From Comamonas badia DSM 17552 (lineage in GTDB: Bacteria > Pseudomonadota > Gammaproteobacteria > Burkholderiales > Burkholderiaceae_C): DNA of 64,000 nt. Location: the NCBI RefSeq assembly GCF_000484635.1, contig NZ_AXVM01000001.1, positions 310,001 through 374,000 on the forward strand, written 5' to 3'. Under the pieces are notes generated by a model. It saw only the letters and a list, made by a program, of their open reading frames with translations, did not search any database and had not been told where the DNA came from. This document shows positions 3,174 to 51,192 of this stretch, piece by piece. The position numbers and the translations under genes were made by a program. Each line of letters begins with the position of its first letter. Within the stretch, counting starts at the first letter, position 1.

Positions 3174-3414
3174 ACTGGCCCGCGGCCACAAGCGGCTGCG
3201 AACGCTGATCGAGTTCGCCCTGGGCGAAGGTTGGAAGGTCGTGCGCACCCGCGGCGGGCACCTGCTGTTCACGAAGCCGGGCTGCGCGCCGATTTACACC
3301 AGCTCGACGGCCAGCGACCACCGCGCCGAGGGCAACGCCCGCGCGCAGCTTCGCCGCGCCGACCGACAGGCAGCCCAGGGTGTTGCAGCATCTCAGGAGA
3401 ACGGCCGTGGCTGA
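3157..3414 (+). CDS. HicA-like small basic protein between parA and parB
   Basis: An 85-residue protein with a HicA/YcfA-type double-stranded-RNA-binding core: 'LIEFALGEGWKVVRTRGGHLLFTKPG' followed by a short strand and an S-T-A-S-D-H segment. HicA toxins use a conserved Gly-x-His in this position, here the GGH at about residue 38, to cleave mRNA. No HicB antitoxin is next to it; ParA precedes and ParB follows, with overlaps of 17 and 8 nt. It may be a HicA fold reused in ICE maintenance rather than a free toxin. The fold call is by motif only. Confidence 0.65.
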   Translation: MASAHELARGHKRLRTLIEFALGEGWKVVRTRGGHLLFTKPGCAPIYTSSTASDHRAEGNARAQLRRADRQAAQGVAASQENGRG

Positions 3415-5080
3415 CCTGACGCCGCAGGACATGGCCGCCAAGCTGCTGGCCTCGGGCTTCGAGCGCAACTGCCCTTCGGTCGCGGCCCTGAGCGACCCCA
3501 TCGCCGACACGCCGATGGTGGTGACGCTGGACCAGTTGCGCCCCTACGACCACGACCCGCGCGTGACGCGCAACCCGGCTTACGAGGACATCAAGGCCTC
3601 GATCCGCGAACGCGGGCTGGATGCGCCGCCCGCGATCACGCGCCGGCCCGGCGAGCCGCACTACATCATCCGCAACGGCGGCAACACGCGCCTGGCGATC
3701 CTGCGCGAGCTGTGGAGCGAGACGAAAGACGAACAGTTCTTCCGCATCCCCTGCCTGTTCCGCCCATGGCCGCAGCGCGGCGAAGTGGTGATGCTGACCG
3801 GGCACTTGGCCGAGAACGAGCTGCGCGGCGGGCTCAGCTTCATCGAGCGGGCCTTGGGCGTGGAGAAGGCGCGCGAGTTCTACGAGCAGGAAAGCGGCCA
3901 GGCGCTGTCGCAGAGCGAGCTGGCGCGGCGGCTCACGGCCGATGGCTTCCCGCTGCCACAGTCGCACATCAGCCGCATGCAGGACGCCGTGCACTACCTG
4001 CTGCCGGCGATCCCGACGCTGCTGTACGGCGGCCTCGGCCGGCATCAGGTGGAACGGCTCGCAGTGCTGCGCAAGGCCTGCGAACGCACCTGGGAGCGGC
4101 GTGCCTTGGGCTGCAACCTGTCGGTGGACTTCGCCACGTTGTTTCAGGACGTGCTCAGCCAGTTCGACACGCAGCCCGACAACTTCTCGCCGCAGCGGGT
4201 GCAGGACGAGCTGGTCGGCCAGATGGCCGAGCTGCTGGGAGTGGACTACGACACGCTGAGCCTGGAGATCGACGACAGCGAGAGCCGGCAGCGCGCATTG
4301 ACCAGTGATCCCGCGCCGCTGCAGGCGGCAAGGCCTGCGGTGCCGGCGGGGTCTTCGGCCGAGCCACCGCGACCACCGTCACCGCCTTCGCCGCCGACCG
4401 GCCCCTCGGTGCAGTCGTCGGAGCCTGGCGCTGGTCAGGCTGCGCAGGCCGATTCCACGCCGGCCGCCAGCGACAAGGGCATGCAGCAGGATGATGGGCT
4501 GCGCGACGAGCGCCTGCAGGGTCACATCGTGTCCCCGGCCCCGACCACCGAACGCCTGCAATCCATCCAGCGCATGGTGGCCGATCAGATGGGCGACAAG
4601 CTGCCCGACTTCGAGGTCGACGCGCTGCGTGCAATCCCCGTGCAGGCGGGCGGGCTCTATCCCATCTCGGACGTCTGGTACATCGAGCCCGGCCTGGACG
4701 TGCCGGATCGGCTGCGGGTGCACATCGCGCAGTTCGCGCGCGAGATCGCCGAGGAAGCCGACGTGGCCGGGCAGGTCGAGCCCAGCGAAGGCGGCATCGG
4801 CTTCGTCTGCGTGGCGCCTCCGGCGGTGCGCGCATTGCCACCGTTCGCGCGTGCGGTGCTGACCTTGCTGCATGCGCTATGCGCCGCGCCCCAACCCGCA
4901 ACCGGCCTCGATGGCGCCCGGCTGGCCGACGACTTGGCGGCCTTGCTGCATGGCGGCGGCACATATCCGCGCCTGAGCGATGCCGGGCTGGTAAAGCTGT
5001 TCCGGCTGCTGCGCCTGGCGCGCCGGCTGCTGAACCTGGAGACCGGCGCGGCCTCCAGCAACCCCGGCCACGGCGCCTGA
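3407..5080 (+). CDS. parB: ParB-family partition protein (ICE PFGI-1 type)
   Basis: A 557-residue protein of the ICE ParB family (TIGR03764). The ParB/sulfiredoxin-like domain is near the N-terminus (VTLDQLRPYDHDPRVTRN, then RERGLDAPPAITRR and IIRNGGNTRLAIL). Next comes a helix-turn-helix region (QSELARRLTADGFPLPQSHI). A Pro/Ser/Ala-rich linker at about 300-360 and a C-terminal helical domain follow. I chose the GTG at 3407 because AGGAGA sits at 3395-3400. It should bind DNA and stimulate ParA; no canonical parS was seen nearby. It is longer than chromosomal ParB, as usual for this ICE subgroup. Confidence 0.9.
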   Translation: MADLTPQDMAAKLLASGFERNCPSVAALSDPIADTPMVVTLDQLRPYDHDPRVTRNPAYEDIKASIRERGLDAPPAITRRPGEPHYIIRNGGNTRLAILRELWSETKDEQFFRIPCLFRPWPQRGEVVMLTGHLAENELRGGLSFIERALGVEKAREFYEQESGQALSQSELARRLTADGFPLPQSHISRMQDAVHYLLPAIPTLLYGGLGRHQVERLAVLRKACERTWERRALGCNLSVDFATLFQDVLSQFDTQPDNFSPQRVQDELVGQMAELLGVDYDTLSLEIDDSESRQRALTSDPAPLQAARPAVPAGSSAEPPRPPSPPSPPTGPSVQSSEPGAGQAAQADSTPAASDKGMQQDDGLRDERLQGHIVSPAPTTERLQSIQRMVADQMGDKLPDFEVDALRAIPVQAGGLYPISDVWYIEPGLDVPDRLRVHIAQFAREIAEEADVAGQVEPSEGGIGFVCVAPPAVRALPPFARAVLTLLHALCAAPQPATGLDGARLADDLAALLHGGGTYPRLSDAGLVKLFRLLRLARRLLNLETGAASSNPGHGA

Positions 5081-5092
5081 GCGGAGGCCATC

Positions 5093-5653
5093 ATGTCGGC
5101 ACCGCATCCGCTCAACCAGGCCGTCATCGCACAGGCGCTGCACGACCTGCGCAATGGGCAACTGCGGCGCTGCAAGGCGATGGGCTTCGGCGAGGAGGAA
5201 CTGGACGCTCTCAAGCACCCCGAACTCGTGAGCATGCTGGTCAACGCCACGGTGTCGTGGTGTTCGGTGTCGGTGAACCGCGATGTGCTGAAGCGGCTGC
5301 TGAGCCAGGTGCATGACGTGAAGCGCGAGATCGCCACGGTGGACCGCATGCTGCGCCTGGGTGCCAGCACGGAGATGGTGAGCCGGTTCTACGGTCTGAC
5401 GCATCAGGAGGTCGCCCTGCGCCGCGACATCCTCGGCCTGCCCAAGCGCAAGGGGCGCCATCCGGTGCTGGACGAAGAGCAGGACACGGCTCTGTGGAGG
5501 CACTGGCAGGCCGGCATCGCCGAACGCAGCATCGCGCTGGACGATGAGGTGGCGATGCTGACGCTGACCATGGACCTGGCCGAGACCTTGAGCCTACCGA
5601 TGTCGGTGATCTGGGCGGCGATACGCAACTGGATCGACCAGGGGCTGGTGTAG
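5093..5653 (+). CDS. DUF2857 family protein
   Basis: A 186-residue all-helical protein of the DUF2857 type found in the parB-to-rep interval of this ICE family. It has a conserved start (AVIAQALHDLRNGQLRRCKAMGF), a mid-protein SRFYGLTHQEVALRRDILGL segment that looks like a helix-turn-helix, and an EEQDTALWRHW stretch. The layout suggests DNA binding, perhaps as a transcriptional modulator of the maintenance operon. It follows parB by 12 nt with GGAGG upstream, and the replication gene starts 3 nt after its stop. Function is not established. Confidence 0.8.
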   Translation: MSAPHPLNQAVIAQALHDLRNGQLRRCKAMGFGEEELDALKHPELVSMLVNATVSWCSVSVNRDVLKRLLSQVHDVKREIATVDRMLRLGASTEMVSRFYGLTHQEVALRRDILGLPKRKGRHPVLDEEQDTALWRHWQAGIAERSIALDDEVAMLTLTMDLAETLSLPMSVIWAAIRNWIDQGLV

Positions 5654-6998: not shown

Positions 6999-7118
6999 AT
7001 GGAACACGCAGCCTTCCCGAGACGACAACCGGGGACACGCCTGCTGCGGTTTGTTGACTGACGGCCTTCCGGGCGATGCCGATGCTGGCGGCTCGTTCCT
7101 TCACCGCGAGTCATCACC

Positions 7119-7904
7119 ATGTCCAACGAGCCCCAACAGCCCCTGCAGTTGAACCTCGGATCGCTGCGCAGCGCGATGTCGCTGACGCTGCACACGCACC
7201 ACGCTTCGCGCATCTGGCATGGGCGAGCGCCTGCCGAGGGGCGGCCCGGCATCATCGGCCTCAACGGCTACATCAGCGTGATGAACAAGATGAAGCGCGG
7301 TGCCGAGCAGGACGATCCCTACTCGGACTGGTGGATGCTGCGCATCGAGGACAAGCTGACGCAGACCAAGGCCGGCCTGCAGGCGCTGCGCGAACAGGTG
7401 GATCAGGCGCTGGCCGATGTGCCGCCCGCGCTGTCCCTGGGCGAGAACATGAACGTGCAGCCGGTGAAGCTGCCGCTGTTCGTCAACGCGCAACTCGGCT
7501 TCATGGCGGTGTACCTGCTGGCCGACTACGACGACCTGGCGCGCAAGCTGATCCTCGCCCACCACACCGCGCTGATCGACCGCAGCACGCTGGAACGCTG
7601 GCTCAACGACGGCGCGCACGCGCTGCGCAGCCTGTTCTCGCTGGCACAGCAGTACCGCTACTCCGGCGCAACGCGCGACGACTTCGCCTCGAAGAACGCG
7701 GTGGCGCGGGCGGCGCTGGAGAAGTTCGGCGAGCTGCCGCAGGACGTGCTCGAAGGCACGCGCCGCTCGCGTTTTGCGCCACCGATCGCGCGGCGGGCGG
7801 GCAAGCCTGGCGCAGCCGCTGATGTCGCACCCGTCGCTGGCGCAGCCGATGTGGTGCAAGACCACAAAGACAGCGACCAGGACGGCGAAGGCGCCAAAGC
7901 ATGA
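7119..7904 (+). CDS. ICE protein of the PFL_4669 family (TIGR03761)
   Basis: A 261-residue soluble protein of the TIGR03761 family, restricted to ICEs of this type and always in the replication module. Visible landmarks are LRSAMSLTLHTHHASRIWHGR near the start, GRPGIIGLNGYISVMNKMKRGAEQDDPYSDWWM at about 40-75, and a basic C-terminus. No enzymatic motif can be seen. Its stop overlaps the next start by 4 nt (ATGA), so it is coupled to the DUF3158 gene and then ssb. The 229-nt leader holds two copies of the CTATCCCCAGGGGATAG palindrome, suggesting a separate promoter. Function unknown; accessory replication role inferred from context. Confidence 0.88.
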   Translation: MSNEPQQPLQLNLGSLRSAMSLTLHTHHASRIWHGRAPAEGRPGIIGLNGYISVMNKMKRGAEQDDPYSDWWMLRIEDKLTQTKAGLQALREQVDQALADVPPALSLGENMNVQPVKLPLFVNAQLGFMAVYLLADYDDLARKLILAHHTALIDRSTLERWLNDGAHALRSLFSLAQQYRYSGATRDDFASKNAVARAALEKFGELPQDVLEGTRRSRFAPPIARRAGKPGAAADVAPVAGAADVVQDHKDSDQDGEGAKA

Positions 7905-11650: not shown

Positions 11651-12481
11651 TCACAGTGACATTCGACGTCCAAGCAGCACGGCGCTCGAAGGACAAAGGC
11701 TTGCGGCCTGCCGTGTGGCAAGGATGGCCGCCGGTGCGGCGCTGCGCTCGATTGGCTTGAAGCCCGCGCGCTCGAAGAACGGCGCAGCCGTCGTGGTCAG
11801 CAACCAGGCGTCGCGCCCGCCCTCGTCGAAGGCACGGCGCAGCAGCAGTGCGAACATTCCGCCGCCGATGCCGCGATGGCGTGCGTGTGGCAGCACCACC
11901 AGGGAGCGCACGAGCACGTCTCGGCCCAGGCGCTCGAAGCCGCCGTAGCCCACGCGCTCGCCGGACACCGTGGCATAGGCGAAGAAGCTGCGCCCTGGTT
12001 CGGCCAGGTCGTCCGTGGGAAGCACGGCCTCTTGCAAAGCCAGGGCGAGGTCCGGGTCGCTGCCGGCGATCGGCGTATCCACCAGCAGCGGCGTGCCATC
12101 CTCCTTGCGGTTCTCGCCCGCCGGTCGTTGCGGCAGCAGGTCGATCACCATGTCCGAGGGGCGGCACAGGCGCACGCCCGAGCGCGACACCACGATGGGC
12201 CGATTGATGAGGATCGGGTACGCCAGCATCTGATCGATCAACTGGTCGTCGCTCCAATGCGCGGCATCCAGGCCCAGTTCCTTGTAGGGCGTGCCCTTGA
12301 TGCGCAACACATCCCGCACGCCCATGCCCATCCGCGCGATCAGCGCCTTCAAGGTCTCGCGGTCGGGCGGCGTCTTCAGGTACTCGATGACCGTGGGCTC
12401 GATGCCGCTGGCGCGGATCAGCGCCAGCGTGTTGCGCGACGTGCCGCAGTCCGGGTTGTGGTAGATCGTGACGGTACTCAT
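11651..12481 (-). CDS. arsC: Fusion of glutaredoxin-type arsenate reductase (ArsC) and ArsN2 acetyltransferase
   Basis: A single 276-codon frame joins two enzymes. Residues 1 to about 118 are a thioredoxin-fold ArsC with catalytic Cys12 (YHNPDCGTSR) and the arsenate-binding arginines R60, R94 and R107 in the positions of the plasmid R773 enzyme. It reduces arsenate to arsenite using glutathione and glutaredoxin. After a short polar linker, residues about 135-276 are a GNAT domain of the ArsN2 type, with the acetyl-CoA loop near LPHARHRGIGGGM. ATG at 12481 overlaps the ACR3 stop by 4 nt; longer in-frame starts inside ACR3 are rejected. Last gene of the operon. Confidence 0.85.
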   Translation of the reverse strand: MSTVTIYHNPDCGTSRNTLALIRASGIEPTVIEYLKTPPDRETLKALIARMGMGVRDVLRIKGTPYKELGLDAAHWSDDQLIDQMLAYPILINRPIVVSRSGVRLCRPSDMVIDLLPQRPAGENRKEDGTPLLVDTPIAGSDPDLALALQEAVLPTDDLAEPGRSFFAYATVSGERVGYGGFERLGRDVLVRSLVVLPHARHRGIGGGMFALLLRRAFDEGGRDAWLLTTTAAPFFERAGFKPIERSAAPAAILATRQAASLCPSSAVLLGRRMSL

Positions 12482-13569
12482 GCCGGATGCCTCGCTGCGT
12501 TGCGCGGGGCCTGTTCGTACCAGGCGCGGGAACGGTTGACCACGCGCACCACCAGCAGCATCACCGGCACTTCGATCAGCACGCCGACCACGGTGGCGAG
12601 GGCCGCGCCGGAATGGAAGCCGAACAGGCTGATGGCCGCTGCCACTGCCAGCTCGAAAAAGTTGCTGGCACCGATCAACGCCGAGGGACACGCGATGTTG
12701 TGCTTCTCGCCGACCCTGCGGTTGAGCCAGTAGGCGAGGCCGGAATTGAAGAACACCTGGATCAGAATGGGTACGGCGAGCATGGCGATCACCAGCGGCT
12801 GTCGCAGGATGGCCTGGCCCTGGAAGGCGAATAGCAACACCAGCGTCAGCAGCAGCGCTGCGATTGAGAGCGGGCCGAGGCGCTCCAGCGCGCGGTCGAA
12901 CGCGGCCTGTCCACGACGCAGCAGCGAGCGGCGCCACACCTGCGCGAGGACGACGGGGATGATGATGTAGAGCACCACTGAGGTCAGCAGCGTGTCCCAC
13001 GGCACGGTGATCGCCGACAGGCCCAGCAGCAGCCCGACGATGGGCGCGAAGGCGAACACCATGATGGTGTCGTTCAGCGCCACCTGCGACAGAGTGAATA
13101 CCGGGTCGCCGCCGGTCAGTCGGCTCCACACGAACACCATCGCTGTGCACGGTGCGGCGGCCAGCAGGATCAGGCCGGCGACGTAGCTGTCGAGCTGGTC
13201 GGCCGGCAGCCAGTCGGCGAAGACGTGGCGGATGAACAGCCAGGCCAGCAGTGCCATCGAGAACGGCTTGACCGCCCAGTTGACGAACAGCGTCACGCCG
13301 ATGCCACGCCAGTGCTGGCGAACCTGGCCGAGCGCGCCGAAATCCACCTTGAGCAGCATCGGGATCACCATGACCCATATGAGCAGGCCGACCGGCAGGT
13401 TGACCTGGGCCACTTCCATGCGGCCGACGGCCTGGAACGCGCCAGGCGCGAGCTGGCCCAGGGCGATGCCGGCGACGATGCACAGCAGCACCCACACCGT
13501 CAGGTAGCGCTCGAAGATGCTCATCGAGAACGATGGCGTGGCGGCGACGGCTTCGGTCTGTACGGTCAT
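12478..13569 (-). CDS. arsB: ACR3-family arsenite efflux transporter
   Basis: A 363-residue membrane protein of the ACR3 (BART superfamily) type with about ten hydrophobic segments. The diagnostic AAAPCTAMVFVWSRLTGGDP segment carries the conserved membrane cysteine needed for arsenite transport. An N-terminal SIFERYLTVWVLLCI stretch and a second half-repeat with GLAYWLNRR also fit. It exports arsenite made by the two reductases in the operon, using the proton gradient. The gene follows the phosphatase-type arsC by 9 nt and overlaps the arsC-arsN2 start by 4 nt. ACR3 is often labelled arsB although it is unrelated to the ArsB family. Confidence 0.93.
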   Translation of the reverse strand: MTVQTEAVAATPSFSMSIFERYLTVWVLLCIVAGIALGQLAPGAFQAVGRMEVAQVNLPVGLLIWVMVIPMLLKVDFGALGQVRQHWRGIGVTLFVNWAVKPFSMALLAWLFIRHVFADWLPADQLDSYVAGLILLAAAPCTAMVFVWSRLTGGDPVFTLSQVALNDTIMVFAFAPIVGLLLGLSAITVPWDTLLTSVVLYIIIPVVLAQVWRRSLLRRGQAAFDRALERLGPLSIAALLLTLVLLFAFQGQAILRQPLVIAMLAVPILIQVFFNSGLAYWLNRRVGEKHNIACPSALIGASNFFELAVAAAISLFGFHSGAALATVVGVLIEVPVMLLVVRVVNRSRAWYEQAPRNAARHPA

Positions 13570-13578
13570 CGTGCTACC

Positions 13579-14076
13579 TCACTGCTTGCCGATGACGCGC
13601 AGCTCATGCTGCAGCGACATGGCATCGAGCCGTTGGAGCGGCAGCGACAGGAACAGCTCGATGCGACGCTTGAGCGTCAACGCGGCGTCCATGAACGCCT
13701 TGCGCTGCTGTTCCTCGCTGCCTTCGACGGCGGCCGGATCGGGCACGCCCCAATGGGCCGACACCGGCTTGCCCGGCCATACGGGACACACCTCGCCAGC
13801 GGCGTTGTCGCAGACGGTGAAGATGAAATCGAACACCGGCGCACCGGGCGCCACGAATTCGTCCCAGCTCTTGCTGCGGTAGCCGGTCGTTGGCAGGCGC
13901 AGGCGCTCCAGCGTGGCGAGCGCCAGCGGGTGGACTTCGCCCTTGGGGTGGCTCCCCGCCGAGTAGGCGCGAAACCGTCCCAGGCCCAGTTCGTTGAGGA
14001 TGCCTTCGGCCAGGATGGAACGCGCCGAATTTCCGGTGCAGATGAACAGCGCGTTGTAGGTGGTTTCAGTCGTCAT
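13579..14076 (-). CDS. arsC: Arsenate reductase, low-molecular-weight phosphatase type
   Basis: A 165-residue protein with the LMW-PTPase P-loop CTGNSARS (Cys13) and the later cysteine pair VCDNAAGEVCPVWPG of thioredoxin-linked arsenate reductases. Family members reduce arsenate through a cascade of three cysteines, or act as aryl phosphatases. The ars context supports the former. The C-terminal tail (LFLSLPLQRLDAMSLQHELRVIGK) is typical of versions encoded beside ACR3. It lies between the arsI-like gene and ACR3 with gaps of 12 and 9 nt. Two arsenate reductases of unrelated fold therefore share this operon. Confidence 0.92.
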   Translation of the reverse strand: MTTETTYNALFICTGNSARSILAEGILNELGLGRFRAYSAGSHPKGEVHPLALATLERLRLPTTGYRSKSWDEFVAPGAPVFDFIFTVCDNAAGEVCPVWPGKPVSAHWGVPDPAAVEGSEEQQRKAFMDAALTLKRRIELFLSLPLQRLDAMSLQHELRVIGKQ

Positions 14077-14088
14077 CGATGCCTCGCG

Positions 14089-14553
14089 TCAGCAGCAAGA
14101 AGCAGCCCGTTTCGCGGCGGCGCGACTGTCACTCGGCGCGCAGCAAGCCGGAGCTGTGCCCGGCGCGGGCTGCGGCGCTTCGTTGAACACGGGGATGTTG
14201 CCCAGCGTGTGGAAATGCTCCCAGGCCACGCCCTGCGGGTCGGTGACCCAGTGCTTCTCACTGCGTGCATAGCAGCAGGTCGTGGTGCCTTCGTCGAGCA
14301 GCGCCATGTCGGCAGCCTGCGCGCGGGCCTTCAGGGCGGTGAGTTCGTCGGCGTCATCGGTCTGGATGCCCAGGTGGTCGATGCCCGGCTTGCTGCCGCG
14401 CGTGGAGATGGCGAAGTTGACCGGCGGGTCTTCGAGCATCCACTTCGCGTAGTCGGCCTCGATGCGAGCCGGCTGCGCGGCGAACAGTTGGGAATAGAAG
14501 CCGATGCTGCGATTCAGGTCATCGACGTGCAGGTGGACGTGGAAGCGTTTCAT
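14089..14553 (-). CDS. arsI: ArsI/CadI-family vicinal-oxygen-chelate metalloenzyme
   Basis: A 154-residue glyoxalase/VOC-fold protein. Metal ligands are apparent in MKRFHVHLHV (His), GIDHLGIQ (His) and VAWEHFHT (Glu). A vicinal cysteine pair in TTCCYARSEKHWVTDPQG matches the As(III)-binding CC of ArsI, the C-As lyase that demethylates methylarsenite. The same pair occurs in CadI-type relatives, so the substrate is not certain. The C-terminal tail has further CC pairs (PACCAPSDS, ASCC at the end), unusual and possibly metal-binding. It is second in the operon, 11 nt after arsR. Confidence 0.85.
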   Translation of the reverse strand: MKRFHVHLHVDDLNRSIGFYSQLFAAQPARIEADYAKWMLEDPPVNFAISTRGSKPGIDHLGIQTDDADELTALKARAQAADMALLDEGTTTCCYARSEKHWVTDPQGVAWEHFHTLGNIPVFNEAPQPAPGTAPACCAPSDSRAAAKRAASCC

Positions 14554-14564
14554 GGAGGTTCCTT

Positions 14565-14894
14565 TCAGCAGGAGGCGCAGGCACGGGTGGATTCATTGGC
14601 CTCGCACACGCCACCTTGGCAGCAGTGCTCGGTCAGGTAGCCGAGCAGCCCGTTCATATGGGCGAAGTCGGCGCGGTAGATCAGGTTGCGGCCCTGTTGC
14701 TCGATGGTGACGAGGCCGGCATGGGCCAGCTCCTTCAGATGGAAGGACAGGGTGTTGCGGGCCACGTCGAGCTGGTCGGCCAGGACGCTGGGCGTGAGCC
14801 CTTCGGGGCCGGCGACGACCAGGGCGCGGAACACGCGAAGGCGCTGGGTGTGGGCCAGGGCGCCCAGGGCGGAAACGGCTTGGGTCTCGTTCAT
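14565..14894 (-). CDS. arsR: ArsR-family arsenite-responsive repressor
   Basis: A 109-residue winged-helix repressor of the ArsR/SmtB family: ALAHTQRLRVFRALV as first helix, LADQLDVARNTLSFHLKELAHAGLV as the recognition region. The As(III) site is probably C-terminal, C91, C92 and C97 (EHCCQGGVC). This resembles the Acidithiobacillus ferrooxidans ArsR type rather than the R773 type, which has CxC in the DNA-binding helix. It should release the operator at 14897-14920 when arsenite binds. First gene of the five-gene minus-strand operon. Confidence 0.93.
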   Translation of the reverse strand: MNETQAVSALGALAHTQRLRVFRALVVAGPEGLTPSVLADQLDVARNTLSFHLKELAHAGLVTIEQQGRNLIYRADFAHMNGLLGYLTEHCCQGGVCEANESTRACASC

Positions 14895-14896: not shown

Positions 14897-14920
14897 TTCA
14901 ATAATACAACATCTATTGAA
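14897..14920 (-). promoter_or_regulatory. ArsR operator in the ars promoter
   Basis: TTCAATA (14897-14903) and TATTGAA (14914-14920) form a 7-bp inverted repeat with a 10-nt spacer, 2 nt upstream of the arsR start in an AT-rich patch. This matches the size and composition of ArsR/SmtB-family operators, so autoregulation is likely. Confidence 0.75.
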
Positions 14921-15033
14921 TCATTGTGCAAGCACATCGCAATAGAGGACCGGGCGCGCCCGACCCCAATCGGGGACGCCACTGCGCCCGATTGCTGCGT
15001 GACGCGGCTATCTGATAGTCCGAAGCTCACCCT

Positions 15034-15146
15034 CATGCGTTGCTGACCGTCGTCAGCGGCATGCCCTGGCAGTCCCGGTCTTCAAGACTGCAACGCGGTT
15101 CGCCGCGTTGACCGATCCAGTCCGCTTCGCATCGCCCACCGCGGAC
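15034..15146 (+). ncRNA. Multi-hairpin leader RNA element, copy A
   Basis: First of four related elements. Hairpin 1 is CATGC/GCATG flanking GCTGAC/GTCAGC (15034-15063 region). Hairpin 2 is GCAGTC (15069-15074) with GACTGC (15086-15091) around a loop ending TTCAA. Hairpin 3 is AACGCGG (15092-15098), loop TTCG, CCGCGTT (15103-15109). Hairpin 4 is GTCCGC (15120-15125) with GCGGAC (15141-15146). Stem bases covary with the other copies. It lies about 100 nt upstream of the gene at 15244, in the leader, so a cis-regulatory RNA is likely. Confidence 0.65.
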
Positions 15147-15188
15147 GCTCGCCGGCCTGGCGACGATGCACTTTTGTCAACCACCCGA

Positions 15189-15223
15189 GGGGAACCCCAT
15201 CCCCTGCGGGATGCGTGCTCCCC
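15189..15223 (+). promoter_or_regulatory. Split-stem hairpin just before the ribosome site
   Basis: Outer stem GGGGA (15189-15193) with TCCCC (15219-15223) encloses a perfect inner hairpin CATCCC-CTGC-GGGATG (15198-15213). The ribosome site AAGGAG (15232-15236) of the gene at 15244 starts 9 nt later. Same design as the leaders of several genes up to 22.8 kb. Confidence 0.55.
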
Positions 15224-15243
15224 GACCCACCAAGGAGCACGGC

Positions 15244-15480
15244 ATGTCTGAACTTTCCGCATCTTCCTGCGCAACCGCAGTGCGCAGTGGTGCGCTGGCG
15301 CTGGCCTGGACCGGCAAGCGTTTGCCGCTACAGGTGCTGCGCAGCGCGGCCGGCCACTACATCGGCACGCAAGACGACGAAGGCCCGGTATCGCGGGAGT
15401 CCGTCGAGTATTTCCCGACCCACCTCGCAGCACAGCGCGCCCTGGATACCCATGCCTGGACACAGCGCGCTCACCCCTGA
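15244..15480 (+). CDS. Small hypothetical ICE protein (78 aa)
   Basis: A short, soluble protein with the pattern SGALALAWTGKRLPLQVLRSAAGHYIGTQDDEGPVSRESVEYF, which looks like a small beta-sheet domain, then a helix (HLAAQRALDTHAW). I recognise no named family. The ATG at 15244 is chosen because AAGGAG lies at 15232-15236 and a structured leader ends just before. It is preceded by RNA element copy A and followed after 25 nt by the next gene, so the two are probably one transcript. Confidence 0.7.
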   Translation: MSELSASSCATAVRSGALALAWTGKRLPLQVLRSAAGHYIGTQDDEGPVSRESVEYFPTHLAAQRALDTHAWTQRAHP

Positions 15481-15505
15481 TTCCCACCCTTCAAGGAGTT
15501 CTCTC

Positions 15506-15898
15506 ATGAATCTGTCTTTACCCGAAGACGTGCTCGATCAGATGGCGCTGGAACAGGCGCACTTCGACGCTGCACCGCAGGCCTTCTTCGAGGCCTGGAA
15601 GCGCGGCGCGCAGATCGCCGGCCACGAGTGGTTCGGCGACGGCACACGCGAAGGTCTGCAGCGTGCCACCACCAAGTGGGACCTGCGGCCCAACATGCTG
15701 ATGCTCAACGACGCCCTGGGCGTGCTGAGCAGCGGTCAACGCATGTTCCTGTCCGCGATGGTGAGCTTCTACAACTCCCGCGAGGGCGGCGCGATGCTCA
15801 AGCGTTGCGGCTTCGAGGGGCTGTCCGACTTCGGCGGCCTCGATCTGGAACGGCGCCAGGTCATCGCTGACCTCACGCTGCACTACAACGGCTGGTGA
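15506..15898 (+). CDS. Hypothetical ICE protein (130 aa)
   Basis: A helical, acidic 130-residue protein of unknown family. Landmarks are MNLSLPEDVLDQMALEQAHFDAAPQ, a KRGAQIAGHEWFGDG segment and ALGVLSSGQRMFLSAMVSFYNSREGGAMLKR. No catalytic motif, signal peptide or membrane segment is visible. The ATG at 15506 has AAGGAG upstream. It appears co-transcribed with the 78-aa gene, 25 nt before it. Function unknown. Confidence 0.72.
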   Translation: MNLSLPEDVLDQMALEQAHFDAAPQAFFEAWKRGAQIAGHEWFGDGTREGLQRATTKWDLRPNMLMLNDALGVLSSGQRMFLSAMVSFYNSREGGAMLKRCGFEGLSDFGGLDLERRQVIADLTLHYNGW

Positions 15899-15938
15899 AC
15901 CGCGCCTGGCAACCCACCGTCCTTTCATCCCACCCCAC

Positions 15939-15974
15939 GAGGGACATGCGTCCCCGTTCGGGGCCATGTCCCTC
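15939..15974 (+). promoter_or_regulatory. Long split-stem hairpin leader
   Basis: GAGGGACATG (15939-15948) pairs perfectly with CATGTCCCTC (15965-15974), enclosing CCCC-GTTC-GGGG (15952-15963). It is followed by a pyrimidine tract and AGGAG (15986-15990). It precedes a mini-frame rather than a normal gene. This is the clearest example of the leader design shared along 15-23 kb. Confidence 0.6.
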
Positions 15975-15995
15975 CTTCCTTCCGCAGGAGCGGCC

Positions 15996-16022
15996 ATGTC
16001 CCGAATCACCATCTTCCACTGA
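15996..16022 (+). other. Eight-codon mini-frame with a good ribosome site
   Basis: AGGAG at 15986-15990 is followed at normal spacing by ATG and an 8-residue frame (MSRITIFH, then TGA). The structured leader and ribosome site are those of a real gene, but the frame ends at once. It may be a leader peptide, or the start of a gene that was lost while its leader was kept. The 126 nt after the stop lead to a hairpin at 16091-16126 before the next gene. Confidence 0.35.
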
Positions 16023-16090
16023 CCTGCACCGCCCGCCACCAGGGCGGCCCGACGCCGCGGCCGGCTGACCGGCTGCCACTTCATCCACTC

Positions 16091-16126
16091 GCTGGGGTTC
16101 AATCCCCGGCAGGGGATTGCCTCGGC
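16091..16126 (+). promoter_or_regulatory. Hairpin leader of the gene at 16149
   Basis: Perfect 8-bp inner hairpin CAATCCCC (16100-16107) with GGGGATTG (16112-16119), loop GGCA. An outer six-pair stem with wobbles joins 16091-16096 to 16121-16126. GGAGG follows about 10 nt downstream, before the ATG at 16149. Confidence 0.5.
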
Positions 16127-16148
16127 CATCCTCTGCTGGAGGAATCCC

Positions 16149-16865
16149 ATGTCTCATTCCAAAAACCCCTTCGTCCGCGGCTACGATGGCCTGTCCGTGC
16201 AGCGGCTGCTGGCGATTTCCTACGACGACGGCTGCCCGCTGAGCTATCTGCCGCTGCACGTCTCGCAGTCGCACCTGCCGGACAGCCAGGTCGAGCGCCA
16301 TGCCTGCGTCTTCTGCGACGACTTCGCGCTGATCACCGAGGGCCAGAACGTGCCGCCCGAGCTGGACGCGCAGTGCCCCAGCCACGGCATCGCCCGAAAC
16401 CTCGTCTACGCCGTCATGGCCGAAGAAGCCGGCCAACCGCTGCACGTCGGCGATACCTACTCCGAGGAAGCCGCGCGCGAGGTGGTACGCCGCCTGCGCT
16501 TCGAGACCGGCTTCTACAGCCGTGCCTGGGAAATCAGTTCGGCGCACATCACCGAGGAGGCCGGCCGCTTCCTCGCCGAACTGGCGGACATCGCCACGCC
16601 GAGCGGTTTTTTGTTCGTGGCCTTCCGCATTCCCTACAGCCCGGCGGTCGGCGTGAAGCTGATCGCCACGCCTTGGACGGATGCGAACCTGCAGCATGTC
16701 GAGGGCATCACCGCCGAAGAGCTGCGGCAGGAGCACCGGGCCAAGGGCGTGCCGGAGTCCCTCGTGGAAGTGTTGCACCTGGCTGCGCTCGCCGACGTTC
16801 GCATGTTGGTGTTCGATGCCGACGCGCCCGTGCTGGACGGACTGACGCTCTACGACGACGAGTAA
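16149..16865 (+). CDS. Hypothetical ICE protein (238 aa)
   Basis: A 238-residue soluble, acidic protein. Residues about 30-60 include HLPDSQVERHACVFCDDFALITEG, with a CVFCDD pair that might bind metal. The middle has YAVMAEEAGQPLHVGDTYSEEAAREVVRRL, and the C-terminus is beta-rich. I cannot assign a family. It has its own hairpin leader upstream and a good intrinsic terminator 14 nt after the stop, so it is probably a separate transcription unit. Genes of this kind are common and uncharacterised in this part of PAGI-2-like ICEs. Confidence 0.75.
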   Translation: MSHSKNPFVRGYDGLSVQRLLAISYDDGCPLSYLPLHVSQSHLPDSQVERHACVFCDDFALITEGQNVPPELDAQCPSHGIARNLVYAVMAEEAGQPLHVGDTYSEEAAREVVRRLRFETGFYSRAWEISSAHITEEAGRFLAELADIATPSGFLFVAFRIPYSPAVGVKLIATPWTDANLQHVEGITAEELRQEHRAKGVPESLVEVLHLAALADVRMLVFDADAPVLDGLTLYDDE

Positions 16866-16879
16866 CCCGCAACCCATTC

Positions 16880-16907
16880 GAGCCCCCACGTCGGGGCTCT
16901 TCTTTTT
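16880..16907 (+). terminator. Intrinsic terminator
   Basis: GAGCCCC (16880-16886) pairs with GGGGCTC (16893-16899) around CACGTC, followed by TTCTTTTT. It ends the transcription unit of the 238-aa gene. Confidence 0.85.
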
Positions 16908-16977
16908 CGCGGAACGCGGTGCCGGCGCATTGCCGATTCCCAACGGACGGCCGCCGCCATGTGCCGCACGCTGGCCG

Positions 16978-17078
16978 CATGTTCGCTGGCGTTGCCGGCA
17001 GCATGCCCAGGCAGTCGAGACCTTCAAGACTGCGGCGCGGTTCGCCGTGCTGGTTGCTTCGTTCTCCGGGCGCACCCG
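16978..17078 (+). ncRNA. Multi-hairpin leader RNA element, copy B
   Basis: Hairpin 1 is GCTGGC/GCCGGC inside a CATG/CATG clamp (16978-17004). Hairpin 2 is GCAGTC (17011-17016) with GACTGC (17028-17033). Hairpin 3 is GCGCGG (17035-17040), loop TTCG, CCGTGC (17045-17050), with one G-U pair. Copy B lacks the fourth stem of the other copies but has CGGG/CCCG at 17067-17078. It starts 70 nt after the terminator at 16880-16907, so it begins a new unit leading to the gene at 17156. Confidence 0.62.
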
Positions 17079-17097
17079 CGTCCATCCACCTCACCCT

Positions 17098-17134
17098 CAA
17101 GGGACAGACCTCCCTTGCGGGCGGGAGTCCCTTG
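17098..17134 (+). promoter_or_regulatory. Split-stem hairpin leader
   Basis: CAAGGGAC (17098-17105) pairs with GTCCCTTG (17127-17134), enclosing CCC-TTGC-GGG (17112-17121). AAGGAG at 17143-17148 then serves the ATG at 17156. Confidence 0.6.
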
Positions 17135-17155
17135 GTTGCCACAAGGAGTCTCCCC

Positions 17156-17953
17156 ATGGATACCCAAGCCATCCGCGCACAGATGCCGACGCTCGTTGTC
17201 GGTCATGTGCCTTCCAACGTCCGTTCGTTCAAATTCAACATCTTCGACGGCCAGCCCAAGGTTTCGACGCTGGGCTTTCACATCGACCCGAAGCCTTTCG
17301 AGGGCAAGGTCATCGCCACCACCGACGAGGCCATCGTCGTCAAGACGGGACGAGCCGAGTTCGCGGTGCTCGATCGCACGCTCGTGACCGAAGTGCCCGA
17401 CGAGGGCGCCAAGGTGCAGGTCGAACCCTATGTCAGACGCCGCTTCGACGGTCAGCGGGCGGACACGCCCGAGGAGCAGACCGAGTTCACCGCCGACGGC
17501 CAGCCCTACACGGTGAAGCGGTTCGTGCTCGGGTCCGCACCGGCGAAGCTGCCGATCCCCGAGCCGCGCTGCCCCGAGCTGCAGGAACTGGTCGACCAAC
17601 TGGAGCAGTTGCCCGCTCCCGACGGTTTCCGGCGCGTCACCCACATGCTGGTGGATGCCGGTGCGCGGGACATCACCTGGGTCGATCCGCTGCCCGCCGA
17701 CATCATCAGCACGCCGCCGGCCATCGGCTTCACCGTCGCCACGATGAAGTTCCAGGGTCGCGTCACCGTGCTGTATGAGCGTGGCCTCGACCTCTACGCG
17801 GTGGAACTGCAACGCGACGGCGAGCTTATCGAACGGGTCGATGAGGTGTTCTTCGACACCCTCGGCGAGACGCTGGAACGGCTGATCGACGACGGGAGTT
17901 GGCGGCGCATCCGCGTGCAGTGCCTGTCGTGTCGTAAGGCTATCCGGCACTGA
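17156..17953 (+). CDS. Hypothetical ICE protein (265 aa)
   Basis: A 265-residue soluble protein of no family I can name. The N-terminal third is beta-rich (RSFKFNIFDGQPKVSTLGFH, FEGKVIATTDEAIVVKTGRAEFAVLDRTLV). A central basic-acidic stretch follows, and the C-terminal third (FTVATMKFQGRVTVLYERGLDLYAVEL, then DTLGETLERLID) ends in CLSCRK, a possible half metal site. The ATG at 17156 has AAGGAG and the split-stem leader directly upstream. A strong hairpin follows its stop. RNA element copy B lies in its leader. Confidence 0.75.
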   Translation: MDTQAIRAQMPTLVVGHVPSNVRSFKFNIFDGQPKVSTLGFHIDPKPFEGKVIATTDEAIVVKTGRAEFAVLDRTLVTEVPDEGAKVQVEPYVRRRFDGQRADTPEEQTEFTADGQPYTVKRFVLGSAPAKLPIPEPRCPELQELVDQLEQLPAPDGFRRVTHMLVDAGARDITWVDPLPADIISTPPAIGFTVATMKFQGRVTVLYERGLDLYAVELQRDGELIERVDEVFFDTLGETLERLIDDGSWRRIRVQCLSCRKAIRH

Positions 17954-17963
17954 TCTCACAGCA

Positions 17964-17988
17964 GCTTCCCGCCCTCGCGGCGGGAAGC
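17964..17988 (+). terminator. Hairpin between the 265-aa gene and the DUF3085 gene
   Basis: GCTTCCCGCC (17964-17973) pairs perfectly with GGCGGGAAGC (17979-17988), loop CTCGC, followed by CTCTCTTCC. The pyrimidine tail is weak for a terminator. It may act as an attenuator or mRNA-stability hairpin for the downstream DUF3085 gene. Confidence 0.55.
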
Positions 17989-18019
17989 CTCTCTTCCTGC
18001 CTCCCTGGAGACCACACCC

Positions 18020-18385
18020 ATGACTGTTCGATTCAAAGGCACGGAGCTTCGGCCCGTGCTCACCGAAGCGGTGGCGAATCAATGCCGCGTCATCCTGGTC
18101 AAGGATCAGGGCGTGTACTTCCTGGCCGAGCGCGGCGAGCGCCGACCCGATGGTCGCCAGAAGACCATCGCCTATGCCGCCGGCTGCAACCCGGATGTCG
18201 ATGCGTTCGATGACTGGTGGGAGCTGGCGCGCGCCGAGTTCGGTGGCGACGACTTCGGCGAGTTCTTCGATACGCAGGAGGGCGTGTTTGCGCACATCCT
18301 GCGCAGCGAGGACGACCTCGACGTGTCCGCCACCGCGACACACCTGTCGCTGCAGGCGGTTCCTCCCACGCCCAGCGGCAACTGA
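18020..18385 (+). CDS. DUF3085-like protein
   Basis: A 121-residue protein whose start (VRFKGTELRPVLTEAVANQCRVILVKDQGVYFLAERGER) and following YAAGCNPDVDAFDDWWELARAEFGGDDFGEFF stretch fit the DUF3085 family of ICE and plasmid proteins. The C-terminal part is acidic. Biochemical function is unknown. It has its own ribosome site (CTGGAG) and is followed by a terminator, so it may be a single-gene unit or a read-through from the 265-aa gene. A candidate RNA motif named after DUF3085 genes is described in the literature; only 66 nt of leader exist here to hold one. Confidence 0.7.
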   Translation: MTVRFKGTELRPVLTEAVANQCRVILVKDQGVYFLAERGERRPDGRQKTIAYAAGCNPDVDAFDDWWELARAEFGGDDFGEFFDTQEGVFAHILRSEDDLDVSATATHLSLQAVPPTPSGN

Positions 18386-18398
18386 CCGCCCATCCCTG

Positions 18399-18423
18399 GC
18401 CCCCGCTCCGGGGGCCTCTTTCT
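18399..18423 (+). terminator. Intrinsic terminator
   Basis: GGCCCCC and GGGGGCC pair around GCTCC, followed by TCTTTCTT. It lies 13 nt after the DUF3085 stop. Confidence 0.8.
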
Positions 18424-18496
18424 TCCCGGCAATGCGGACAGCCGCGAGTGCCGATTGCCGCTCGCCTGCGCGCCGTCCCGACGCCACGCTTCCGGC

Positions 18497-18610
18497 CATG
18501 TTCCGCTGACGTCCGTCAGCAACATGCCCAGGCAGCCACGATCTTCAAGGCTGCGACGCGGTTCCGACCGCGTTGATCACCCCAGTTCGCACCGGCATCC
18601 ATGCGCGAAC
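18497..18610 (+). ncRNA. Multi-hairpin leader RNA element, copy C
   Basis: Hairpin 1 is CATGTT/AACATG clamping GCTGACG/CGTCAGC (18497-18525). Hairpin 2 is GCAGCC (18532-18537) with GGCTGC (18549-18554), a T-to-C change compensated by A-to-G relative to copies A and B. Hairpin 3 is ACGCGG (18556-18561) with CCGCGT (18568-18573). Hairpin 4 is GTTCGC (18585-18590) with GCGAAC (18605-18610). It lies upstream of the DUF3577 gene and just after a terminator. A candidate cis-regulatory RNA named after DUF3577 genes has been described; identity must be tested. Confidence 0.7.
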
Positions 18611-18660
18611 GGCCATCGGTTCTCGATGGCGATGCCACCAAGCTGTTCCATCAACCCACG

Positions 18661-18703
18661 CGGGGGTTCCACACCTTCCCCGCCTGGGTCGGGTGTGTCT
18701 CCG
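18661..18703 (+). promoter_or_regulatory. Split-stem hairpin leader of the DUF3577 gene
   Basis: CGGGG (18661-18665) pairs with CTCCG (18699-18703), and CACACC (18670-18675) pairs with GGTGTG (18692-18697). An inner CCC/GGG hairpin lies at 18678-18688. CAGGAG then precedes the ATG at 18729. Confidence 0.5.
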
Positions 18704-18728
18704 CCTCATTGTTCCCAGGAGATTCACC

Positions 18729-19280
18729 ATGACCACTTCCAATGAAAAATCCTACTTCGATCTGCACATCACCGGCCTCGGGTATCTCAATCGCATCCGC
18801 GAAGTGAAGCCCAAGAAAGGCGATGCGTTCCTGGCCTGCGACATCGCAGCCCTGAACGGTCCCAGCGATGACGTCTCGTATGTGCGTTTCGACACGCGCG
18901 TATCGGGATCTGAAGCGCAGCACCTGGTGCGCCGCTGCATTCAGGCGGTCGACGCCGAGAAGAAGGTGATGATCGGCTTCCGCCTGGGCGACCTGTGGAC
19001 CGACACCTTCACCTACTCCAAGGGCAAGCGTGCCGGCGAGCAGGGGGTGAGCCTCAAGGCCCGCCTGCTGTTCGTCAGTTGGATCAAGGTCGACGGCAAG
19101 CTCGTCTACAAGGCCGAACCCAAGCCGACCGAGACCGACGAGCGCGACCCGGAAGTCCCTGTGACGTCCGACGCGCCCGCTACGCAGCAAGCCTCGGCAC
19201 CGGAGTCTTCCGAGCCCGTCGCCGATGCTGCCGACGACGCAGCCGATGCCCCCGCATTGGCCGTTGCCGAGTCGTTCTGA
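18729..19280 (+). CDS. STY4534-family ICE replication-associated protein (DUF3577)
   Basis: A 183-residue protein of the STY4534/DUF3577 family. The SSB-like core begins KSYFDLHITGLGYLNRIREV and continues with FLACDIAALNGPSDDVSYVRFDTRVSG, then MIGFRLGDLWTDTFTYSKGKRAGEQGVSLKARLLFVSWI. The acidic, Ala/Pro/Glu-rich C-terminal tail (about residues 120-183) looks disordered. Annotated as an ICE replication protein by family; an OB-type nucleic-acid-binding role is my inference from the strand pattern. The ATG at 18729 follows CAGGAG. The leader carries RNA element copy C, and a terminator follows the stop. Confidence 0.85.
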   Translation: MTTSNEKSYFDLHITGLGYLNRIREVKPKKGDAFLACDIAALNGPSDDVSYVRFDTRVSGSEAQHLVRRCIQAVDAEKKVMIGFRLGDLWTDTFTYSKGKRAGEQGVSLKARLLFVSWIKVDGKLVYKAEPKPTETDERDPEVPVTSDAPATQQASAPESSEPVADAADDAADAPALAVAESF

Positions 19281-49758: not shown

Positions 49759-50502
49759 ATGCGCATGCCTTCATTCGTCCGCCGTCATCCCTGGATCGGT
49801 CTGCTGATCGTGGCGACGATTGCGGTTGCCTCGTGGATGCTGCTGCGCGTGCCGCATCCGGTAACCGAGCCCATGTCCCTGGCCGTCGCCGGGTCCGAAG
49901 CGTCGAAACCGGCCGGCCCGCCCTGGTTGTATGGCCGTGCCGATGCGCGCTTCACGGTGGTCGGGTACGCCGACCTGGAGTGTCCGTACTGCCGGGCCTA
50001 CTTCCCCGCGCTCAAGCGCTGGATCGACGCCCATCCCGAGGTGAACTGGCAGTGGCACCACCTGCCGCTGTCCATGCACGAGCCGGCCGCGACTGCCGGG
50101 GCACGCCTGGCCGAGTGCGCGGGCGAGACGGGCGGACATGCCTCGTTCTGGCAGGCCGAGGCATGGCTCTACGCGAACACCCGTGGCGACGGCCAGGGCC
50201 TGCCGGAGGGCCTGCGCTATCCCGACCTCACGCCAGCCATGCAGGGTTGTCTCGACAGCGAGCGCCCCGATGCCGTCATCCGTGCCCAGGCGGCGGAAGC
50301 GGTACAGCAGGGCATCGCGGCGACGCCGGCCCTGCAACTGCGCGACCGCGAGTCCGGCAAGACCCTCCTGCTGCATGGTCCCGTCGAAGGCGATGCCTTG
50401 CTGTCGGCCATCGACCTGCTCGCCGCCGGCAGAACGACCGCAGCCGAACCCGCCCATTCCCCAGACATGCCCGCCGGCGTCGCCGATGACATGCCCAGGT
50501 AG
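49759..50502 (+). CDS. Thiol:disulfide interchange protein, DsbA/DsbC-like
   Basis: A 247-residue exported or membrane-anchored thioredoxin-fold protein. The N-terminal helix is PWIGLLIVATIAVASWMLL. The active site is DLECPYCRAYFP (CPYC near residue 75). The fold continues as VNWQWHHLPLSMHEPAATAGARLAECAGE and QAAEAVQQGIAATPALQLRDRESGKTLLLHGP. It probably forms or shuffles disulfides in channel subunits such as the Cys-rich TraU-like protein. The last 12 codons overlap hairpin 1 of RNA element copy D. ATG at 49759 follows GGGAG. Confidence 0.87.
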   Translation: MRMPSFVRRHPWIGLLIVATIAVASWMLLRVPHPVTEPMSLAVAGSEASKPAGPPWLYGRADARFTVVGYADLECPYCRAYFPALKRWIDAHPEVNWQWHHLPLSMHEPAATAGARLAECAGETGGHASFWQAEAWLYANTRGDGQGLPEGLRYPDLTPAMQGCLDSERPDAVIRAQAAEAVQQGIAATPALQLRDRESGKTLLLHGPVEGDALLSAIDLLAAGRTTAAEPAHSPDMPAGVADDMPR

Positions 50503-50579
50503 CCATCGATCTTCAAGGCTACGGCGCGGCTCGTCCGCGTTGATCGAAACCCGTTCGCATCGCATCCCTTGACGCGAAC
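50466..50579 (+). ncRNA. Multi-hairpin leader RNA element, copy D
   Basis: Hairpin 1 is CGGC/GCCG within a CATG/CATG clamp (50466-50492), inside the end of the Dsb-like gene. Hairpin 2 is GTAGCC (50499-50504) with GGCTAC (50517-50522), a double compensatory change relative to copies A and B. Hairpin 3 is CGCGG (50525-50529) with CCGCG (50535-50539). Hairpin 4 is GTTCGC (50553-50558) with GCGAAC (50574-50579). It lies 158 nt upstream of radC, far from the other copies. A candidate RNA named after radC genes has been described; identity is untested. Confidence 0.68.
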
Positions 50580-50635
50580 AGCCACCGCATCCGCGGTGGT
50601 GGATGCCCGCTCGTCACCTGTTCCATCCCCATCGT

Positions 50636-50661: not shown

Positions 50662-50697
50662 CAGGCGCCCTCCGATCTCATCCATTGGAGGTTCGCC

Positions 50698-51192
50698 ATG
50701 TCTCTTGTCATCGCCGACTCCTGCCCGGAGTCGCTCACCCTGATCGCCGCCCAGCACGAAGACTGGATCATCCGGCAGGCCATCACCCTGCTGGAGAACC
50801 GCGTGTTCAAGGCCGGTCCGGCGCTGGGCAGTCCCGCCGCCGTGCGCGACTACCTGCGCCTGAAACTGGTCGCGGAGCCGAACGAAATCTTCGCCGTCGT
50901 GTTTCTCGACAACCAGCACCAGGTGCTCGCCTTTGAGCCGCTGTTCAAGGGCACGGTCGACCAGACTTCGGTGTATCCGAGGGTGGTGGTCCAGCGTGCG
51001 CTGGCGCTCAACGCTTCGGCGCTGATCCTGGCGCATCAGCATCCCTCAGGGAACACCGAGCCCTCGGTCGCTGATCGTGCGATCACCGAGCGGCTGAAGA
51101 GCGCCCTTGCCACCGTCGATGTCCGGGTGCTGGATCACTTCATCGTCGGCAAGGGCAGCCCGTACTCGTTCGCCGAAGCCGGCTTGCTGTAG
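50698..51192 (+). CDS. radC: RadC-family JAB-domain protein
   Basis: A 164-residue protein of the short RadC type carried on mobile elements. It has only the JAB/MPN domain, with the metal site [16 protein letters not shown] (HxH...S...D). The N-terminal helix-hairpin-helix of chromosomal RadC is missing. Biochemical function is unknown; a DNA-repair role is no longer supported for the family. ICE copies are often near transfer or anti-restriction genes. The ATG at 50698 has TGGAGG upstream; the leader holds RNA copy D and a strong hairpin, and a terminator follows. Confidence 0.9.

Follow-up and report, generated by a model that had tools for sequence, protein, structure and literature searches.

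In a 64,000-nucleotide (nt) stretch of Comamonas badia DSM 17552 (contig NZ_AXVM01000001.1, positions 310,001 to 374,000; hereafter the window, with positions counted from its first letter), four copies of a structured RNA element, here called A to D, were found upstream of protein genes. All four belong to the radC RNA family (RF01754) and lie in an ICEclc-type integrative and conjugative element (ICE). We lean towards the view, drawn from sequence comparison, that radC RNAs are leaders controlling the translation of several ICE genes, through a hairpin (P6) that sequesters the Shine-Dalgarno (SD) sequence and through the conserved radC domain. The comparison shows family membership, covariation, a first pseudoknot, a promoter-like module at 36 of 57 copies and SD pairing above that of control gene starts. 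The radC family is already known; the translational-control mechanism is a new, testable proposal.

A first-pass annotation had described one multi-hairpin element at these four places and suggested a search with the Rfam models of radC- and DUF3577-type motifs. With Rfam 15, all four copies matched RF01754 over the full model at 100.2-134.5 bits, 2.5-3.4 times the gathering cut-off of 40 bits, and the hairpins named in that annotation are present. The search of the whole genome gave four matches, every one inside the window, and a permissive Rfam scan returned no credible family besides radC. As had also been noticed, copies B and C come after terminator-like hairpins (16880-16899 and 18398-18416), copy C precedes a DUF3577/STY4534 gene and copy D precedes a RadC gene. 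Three details had to be revised. Copy B, thought to lack hairpin 4, carries a comparable hairpin; the gaps from the originally drawn copy ends to the start codons are 97, 77, 118 and 118 nt (A to D) rather than 100-160 nt; and a separate DUF3577-named RNA motif was not recovered, as Rfam 15 gave radC only and "DUF3577" occurred in no paper among the matches listed. The folding energy z scores were weak for A, B and D (-0.47, -1.20 and -1.13; C, -2.97), and the case therefore rests on homology and covariation.

To place the copies in a wider sample, the RF01754 model was run against 370 class-level genomes (three with a match at E of at most 0.001, two above the cut-off), 299 genomes of the order (12 with a match, nine above the cut-off) and 200 genomes of the family (nine with a match), each set including the Comamonas genome itself. 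Seven genomes of another family, this genome not among them, gave one with a match, and LB400, which carries a copy of ICEclc, gave five matches above the cut-off. The data set comprised 89 copies from 19 genomes and 24 contigs, 87 of them at or above the cut-off; two sub-cut-off matches of genome G494 were kept. One match below the cut-off in each of G368, G651, G689 and G830 was left out, as was an LB400 match of 19.6 bits. Removal of near-duplicates by similarity left 57 sequences, which form alignment A1, where two near-identical window copies stand in for their relatives. Alignment A2 holds 31 rows from classes A, C, D and E of the copies, with window copy D standing in for one relative. 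A held-out set, unused before, contained 11 copies from five plasmid or phage records, one of which (L136) is close to class D. According to an automatic and simple picker, which reads the sense strand only and may place some starts wrongly, 88 of the 89 copies are followed, at a distance of 7-141 nt, by an open reading frame (ORF) of at least 60 amino acids (aa) with an SD-like sequence; the remaining one is a 39.5-bit match. Plasmids of Pseudomonas putida, Stutzerimonas, Enterobacter and Rhizobium also carry copies, as does a phage-labelled contig. The Enterobacter ludwigii plasmid (L139, 1596-8149), IncF-type and with MPF_G transfer genes by PLSDB typing, has four radC RNAs within 16 kb. 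The phage-labelled contig (L140), whose deposited record describes a bacteriophage of human faeces, has two at 4362-5139 and probably comes from a conjugative element.

The helices P1, P2 and P3 of the Rfam model were present in the 57 sequences, with 91-99% of alignment cells paired. The results showed that the paired changes noticed in the first-pass annotation keep the stems over this whole set: for P1, P2, P3 and pseudoknot 1 together, 92.8% of 1521 cells were paired, 22 of 27 pairs were changed on both sides and 186 cells were doubly changed, values that none of 500 shuffles reached for any of the three counts. When the partners were slid by one column, pairing fell to 24-26%. In pseudoknot 1, the P2 loop pairs with the strand directly after P3, in the forms GATC/GATC, GGTC/GACC, GACC/GGTC and, more rarely, others such as GCAATC/GATTGC. 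All five of its pairs covary, with 50 doubly changed cells; no shuffle in 500 reached that number, and a null simulated on the tree with columns evolved separately gave at most 32 in 500 runs. Under the same null, 500 runs reached the doubly changed cells of P2 once, those of P3 five times and those of the inner pairs of hairpin 1 never. In the held-out copies, pseudoknot 1 was found in 10 of 11 by script, and the eleventh is visible by eye. Thus, a conserved, aptamer-like domain with covariation is present in radC RNA.

Downstream of P3, P4 was paired in 179 of 179 cells (100%), and two of its six pairs covary, with doubly changed cells above the shuffles. Its loop can form pseudoknot 2 with a strand after P5, at the 3' end of many copies (36 of 57, judged by a GCA[TC] core). 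The forms GCATCC/GGATGC, GGCATC/GATGCC, GCATCG/CGATGC and GCACC/GGTGC were seen, with edge pairs varying in a compensating way. With classes B and F set aside (37 copies remaining), the best match of loop to tail scored 5.55, compared with 4.00 for shuffled tails. Class B, like copy B, showed no pseudoknot 2. The P4 finder misread two class C sequences and gave no P4 for classes B and F (apart from one odd F match) or for several G494 copies, and pseudoknot 2 was recounted; the 36 of 57 and the loop-to-tail values are free of the alignment. The 3'-terminal nested helix of three base pairs (bp) in the Rfam model was not supported, and most copies support P4 and pseudoknot 2 there, which concerns a detail of the model and not membership of the family.

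To characterize the region between the radC domain and the start codon, pairing of the SD sequence with the upstream 45 nt was calculated. The mean pairing probability was 0.75 in 43 radC leaders with a strong SD, compared with 0.32 at 213 other gene starts in these loci, which served as controls. Shuffled leaders gave 0.26-0.47 in classes A to D; in the mixed rest, shuffling brought the value down to 0.33, from 0.46. Counting leaders with any SD, a pairing of at least 0.7 was found in 41 of 58, including 10/10 of class D, 12/12 of class C, 11/13 of class B and 3/3 of class F, and 9 of the 11 held-out copies reached at least 0.67. The inner five P6 pairs were kept in all 16 class C leaders, and among 15 class B leaders one P6 pair is G-C in 9 leaders and A-U in 5. 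Upstream of P6, a linker hairpin has a purine-rich 5' arm that could also pair with the anti-SD arm. This alternative pairing was better than the shuffled-linker mean in 43 of 43 leaders of classes A to D, a suggestive hint of a switch. We considered whether the 5' AUG of P1 opens a conserved upstream ORF and rejected this, as the frames end at differing places in the few sequences compared by eye.

The sequence before many copies is also conserved. Among the 57 copies, a box C[CG]G[AT]TT about 35 nt before the motif was found in 37, a -10-like.A.[GC]CT in 38 and both in 36, compared with 7 of 3420 background positions for the box and 106 of 3420 for the -10-like pattern. The spacing from box to -10 is 34 nt in 32 copies and 35 nt in four, and P1 follows the -10 by 5 nt (29 copies) or 6 nt (seven copies). 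The full module was present in 9/9 copies of class A, 12/12 of B, 3/3 of F, 8/10 of C, 1/2 of E and 3/4 of the others, and in 0/9 of class D; copy D itself has none. On the plus strand of the window it occurs at copies A, B and C and at an inrR-type operon that lacks a radC RNA, and it occurs once on the minus strand (1.1 expected in all). The inrR-type operon is a natural control, a module without the RNA. We infer that the module acts as a promoter at the radC copies, and its position relative to P1 predicts that the RNAs of copies A, B and C have P1 at their 5' end. The first ~10 nt of the Rfam match in these copies are probably promoter rather than RNA.

ICEclc offers a point of comparison, as its transfer-competence regulon, with BisDC and InrR, has been described (PMC9286271, PMC7423338 and PMC2892462). 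In LB400, the full module lies at inrR, 88400, 84835 and 81655 and at three sites on the opposite strand (expected total, 2.5). A profile built from radC upstream stretches ranked the inrR promoter fifth after four radC copies, three of which are in the profile, with a small margin over the next site (15.7 vs 14.5). The mapped inrR promoter of ICEclc has the -10 sequence TGTCGATCCT, and the text of the paper puts the start at a T 25 nt before the ATG. In the LB400 copy, both fit the same 34-nt spacing, with the start on the seventh nt after the -10 hexamer; the start in the same paper's table, position 96,204, maps ~190 nt further upstream and disagrees with the text. For ORF81655, a weak primer-extension end was reported ~250 nt before the ATG, in rough agreement with the ~225 nt that we predict in LB400. 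RNA sequencing of ICEclc showed no read drop before ORF58432, the orthologue of the gene behind copy D, and read rises before inrR, 88400, 81655, 84835, 89247, alpA, 67231 and 73676. In a comparison made post hoc, inrR, 88400, 81655 and 84835 have the module, and 89247 has the box without the usual -10. Numbering was transferred between LB400 and ICEclc through ORF ends, which agreed exactly in 17 cases in one block and 9 in a second, with three more one base off.

Several observations weigh against the reading of these RNAs as structured, promoter-coupled translational leaders. Copies within a class are related, so the counts are not independent. The first-pass annotation had expected significant covariation in stems 2-4, and an R-scape-like all-pairs phylogenetic test gave no pair with E<0.05 (best E 0.5), a test that is hard here because the copy classes differ in block. 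The helix-level tests were adopted after this result. P4 has two covarying pairs, which is what shuffles give (310/500). The four outer pairs of P1 have only as many doubly changed cells as expected (195/500 simulations), and the paired-cell count of pseudoknot 1 was reached in 6/500 tree simulations. For pseudoknot 2, the aligned count gives no double change, because MAFFT misplaces it in class A. P6 pairing of at least 0.7 was found in only 2/10 leaders of class A, 0/2 of class E and 3/8 of the mixed genes, and two held-out copies are low in SD pairing (0.02 and 0.49). The alternative linker pairing had class mean z scores of only -0.95 to -2.37, with a range from +0.40 to -3.70 in 9 of the 11 held-out leaders. 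The full module was seen in 0/8 copies of the low-GC genome G494 and in 2/11 held-out copies, and it was not found at other stationary-phase promoters of ICEclc such as alpA and 67231, nor at 73676. Finally, none of the 21 contigs with at least two copies mixes orientations, and orientation therefore does not exclude a role in DNA.

The arrangement that we favour would work as follows. A shared promoter of the activator type would start transcription at hairpin 1 of copies A, B and C, and at copy D the radC RNA would lie within a longer transfer-operon transcript. Each leader would consist of the radC domain (P1-P4, with two predicted pseudoknots in A, C and D and one in B), the linker hairpin and P6. 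By default, P6 would hide the SD and downstream translation would be low; folding of the radC domain, or a small molecule or protein bound to it, would alter access to the ribosome-binding site, and several ICE proteins could rise together once the common promoters fire. Repression by P6, control of P6 by the radC domain and a trigger are all presumed in this scheme, as is, more generally, regulation of the downstream genes by radC RNA. That the RNA acts on the message is argued by class D, which keeps RNA and P6 without the promoter module. The earlier proposal of one RNA regulating a regulon of ICE genes survives in part: a structured radC-family leader is common to several genes of one ICE. 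The regulon would not be one of RNA alone, because the module, to which most copies are coupled, also precedes the RNA-less inrR operon and the RadC-gene copies have RNA without it. A more tentative extension is that radC RNA forms a second, RNA-level layer of an ICEclc-type transfer-competence switch, riboswitch-like and added to the known promoter cascade, in which one signal, a metabolite or an ICE protein, would free the translation of several genes whose transcribed operons are silent until then. If the scheme is true, control over how a large family of mobile elements spreads would act on translation as well as on transcription. It could also help explain the mismatch at ICEclc ORF81655, where read coverage is far above that of intB13 at similar reporter output; the ICEclc authors suggested post-transcriptional control, and the reporters carried their own ribosome-binding site.

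The strongest rival, which has a real though smaller chance of being right, is that radC RNA serves as a translational operator for an ICE-encoded or host RNA-binding protein and not as a small-molecule riboswitch. There are several copies per element, and the genes behind them share, in our judgement, no metabolite theme. In the 200-genome sample, the nine genomes with radC RNA are all among the 15 with STY4534; the other six STY4534 genomes gave no radC match, in a strictly filtered search that may have missed weak ones. No obvious RNA-binding family appeared in a Pfam scan of 37 of the 70 window proteins, which was not a systematic search.

An unlikely alternative makes the radC domain a 5' stabiliser against 5'-dependent decay, or a mark of processed 5' ends, with P6 incidental. 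The spacing of the module would suit it, putting the predicted start on nucleotide 1 or 2 of P1 in all 36 module copies. ORF81655 is reported among the most abundant core transcripts of ICEclc, and UR84835 and UR89247 rise in RNA sequencing while their reporters are inactive, which the authors suggest may reflect processing or too small a fragment. Against it, P1 of class D lies inside a longer transcript and not at a 5' end, and a stabiliser would need P1 alone, not two pseudoknots and conserved loops.

Control at the level of transcription, by attenuation or processive antitermination of long ICE operons, appears improbable. A 14.5-kb transcript has been proposed from the ORF81655 leader, and copies B and C follow terminator-like hairpins, which may be so merely because new transcripts start there. 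A simple scan of 14900-18800, which covers copies A-C, gave no terminator-like site between any of the three and its ATG, and an attenuator there was rejected.

Least credible of all is a role in DNA alone, whether as a promoter, as a site for an activator (BisDC) or as a single-stranded structure. In its favour, the module adjoins 36/57 copies, the radC-bearing ICEclc genes 88400, 81655 and 58432 are among those with bimodal, InrR-dependent promoters, and copies on one contig share one orientation. Against it, the module occurs without RNA at inrR and the RNA without module in class D, and the helices keep pairing via G-U (74 G-U vs 40 A-C cells).

The features underlying the translational-leader model are listed in Table 1.

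Table 1. Positions of the radC RNA copies, their predicted structures, adjoining promoter-like modules and downstream genes in the window
Feature	Position	Strand	Details
Copy A	15024..15169	+	RF01754, 116.6 bits; P1 15034-15063, P2 15069-15091, P3 15093-15108, P4 15120-15125/15141-15146
Promoter-like module, copy A	14988..15027	+	CCGATT 14988-14993, -10-like GAAGCT 15022-15027, spacing 34
Predicted RNA start, copy A	~15034-15035	+	
Pseudoknot 1, copy A	15076-15080 with 15110-15114	+	CGGTC with GACCG
Pseudoknot 2, copy A	15129-15134 with 15164-15169	+	GCATCG with CGATGC
P6, copy A	15214..15241	+	CGTGCTCC/GGAGCACG, SD 15232-15237, just before ATG 15244
Gene behind copy A	15244..15480	+	78-aa protein without family (Pfam scan)
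Copy B	16968..17124	+	RF01754, 100.2 bits; P1 16978-17005, P2 17011-17033, P3 17035-17050
Promoter-like module, copy B	16933..16972	+	CCGATT 16933-16938, CACGCT 16967-16972
Pseudoknot 1, copy B	17019-17022 with 17052-17055	+	GACC with GGTT
P4-like hairpin, copy B	17068-17083	+	GGGCGC/GCGTCC
Linker hairpin, copy B	17098-17117	+	
P6, copy B	17123-17154	+	SD 17143-17148, before ATG 17156
Gene behind copy B	17156..17953	+	265-aa protein, sub-threshold KfrB match only
Copy C	18487..18635	+	RF01754, 132.4 bits; P1 18497-18526, P2 18532-18554, P3 18556-18573, P4 18585-18590/18605-18610
Promoter-like module, copy C	18451..18490	+	CCGATT 18451-18456, CACGCT 18485-18490
Pseudoknot 1, copy C	18540-18543 with 18575-18578	+	GATC with GATC
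Pseudoknot 2, copy C	18594-18599 with 18631-18636	+	GGCATC with GATGCC
P6, copy C	18692..18728	+	GGTG.TCTCC/GGAGA.CACC, SD 18717-18721, before ATG 18729
Gene behind copy C	18729..19280	+	STY4534-family ICE replication protein (DUF3577)
Copy D	50456..50606	+	RF01754, 134.5 bits; P1 50466-50493, P2 50499-50522, P3 50524-50540, P4 50553-50558/50574-50579
Pseudoknot 1, copy D	50506-50511 with 50542-50547	+	TCGATC with GATCGA
Pseudoknot 2, copy D	50562-50567 with 50601-50606	+	GCATCC with GGATGC
P6, copy D	50664..50697	+	GGCG.CCCTCCGA/TTGGAGG..CGCC, SD 50687-50691, before ATG 50698
Gene behind copy D	50698..51192	+	RadC-family (JAB) protein
Promoter-like module, inrR-type operon	7047..7086	+	without radC RNA; first gene 7119-7904, AcaB family

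The element around the copies encodes ParA-like, DUF2857, AcaB-family, DUF3158, SSB, DUF3275, TraC- and TraG-like proteins. From their order and size (557/186 aa, with 550/186 aa in LB400), the genes at 3407-5080 and 5093-5653 would be BisD and BisC. Copy D overlaps the 3' end of a thioredoxin/DsbA-like gene (49702-50502), whose stop codon TAG (50500-50502) falls within P2, which would explain the GTAGCC/GGCTAC variant of that stem. Directly before the promoter of copy A, ArsC-, SBF-transporter-, low-molecular-weight phosphatase-, glyoxalase- and ArsR/HTH-like genes occupy 11651-14894 on the minus strand, probably an arsenic-related cargo; the sequence upstream of this promoter is unlike that of most relatives compared. 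The region 31412-41789 has lower third-position GC and carries a C5-cytosine methylase (31969-34083) and a Z1-domain protein (34116-36755), and it looks like defence or restriction cargo. A KAP-family P-loop NTPase gene (59549-61492, minus strand) lies near the right end of the window.

The radC motif was published as a candidate by Weinberg et al. in 2010, with the table entry "RNA Y, cis-reg y, switch ?", and in the main text of that paper it appears in the table and a reference only (PMC2864571). A CaCoFold re-analysis of 2020 lists radC/RF01754 among the families whose database structure misses covarying pairs, and notes that the Rfam and ZWD versions differ (PMC7657543). The pseudoknots described here may therefore not be new and may already be proposed there. 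The window copies resemble RF01754 in their full-model scores and in their position before genes, radC included; the nested structure line of the family lacks P4 and the pseudoknots and includes an apparent -10 box.

ICEclc is the same kind of element as that in the window, and its LB400 copy has radC RNAs before ORF58432, 81655, 84835, 88400 and 89247. BisDC/InrR dependence has been reported for promoters 88400, 81655 and others, for ICEclc and not for the window element, and ORF58432, 81655 and 88400 are reported among its bimodal, InrR-dependent promoters. A 27-bp motif is common to eight ICEclc promoters; radC RNA lies at only three of these and at two genes outside them, which rules out that the two are one and the same. 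Among the matches listed, with subscription papers and supplements outside the coverage, no function for radC RNA and no link to ICEclc were reported, and the word radC is absent from the main text of the ICEclc regulation papers searched. The present analysis places radC RNA, an orphan since 2010, on ICEclc, so that its role can be tested in a system already established in the laboratory.

In translational riboswitches, a conserved, pseudoknotted domain is followed by a hairpin that sequesters the SD. The radC leaders differ from these in the unrelated genes downstream and in having a switch that is only a candidate, and they are alike in joining a pseudoknotted domain to an SD hairpin.

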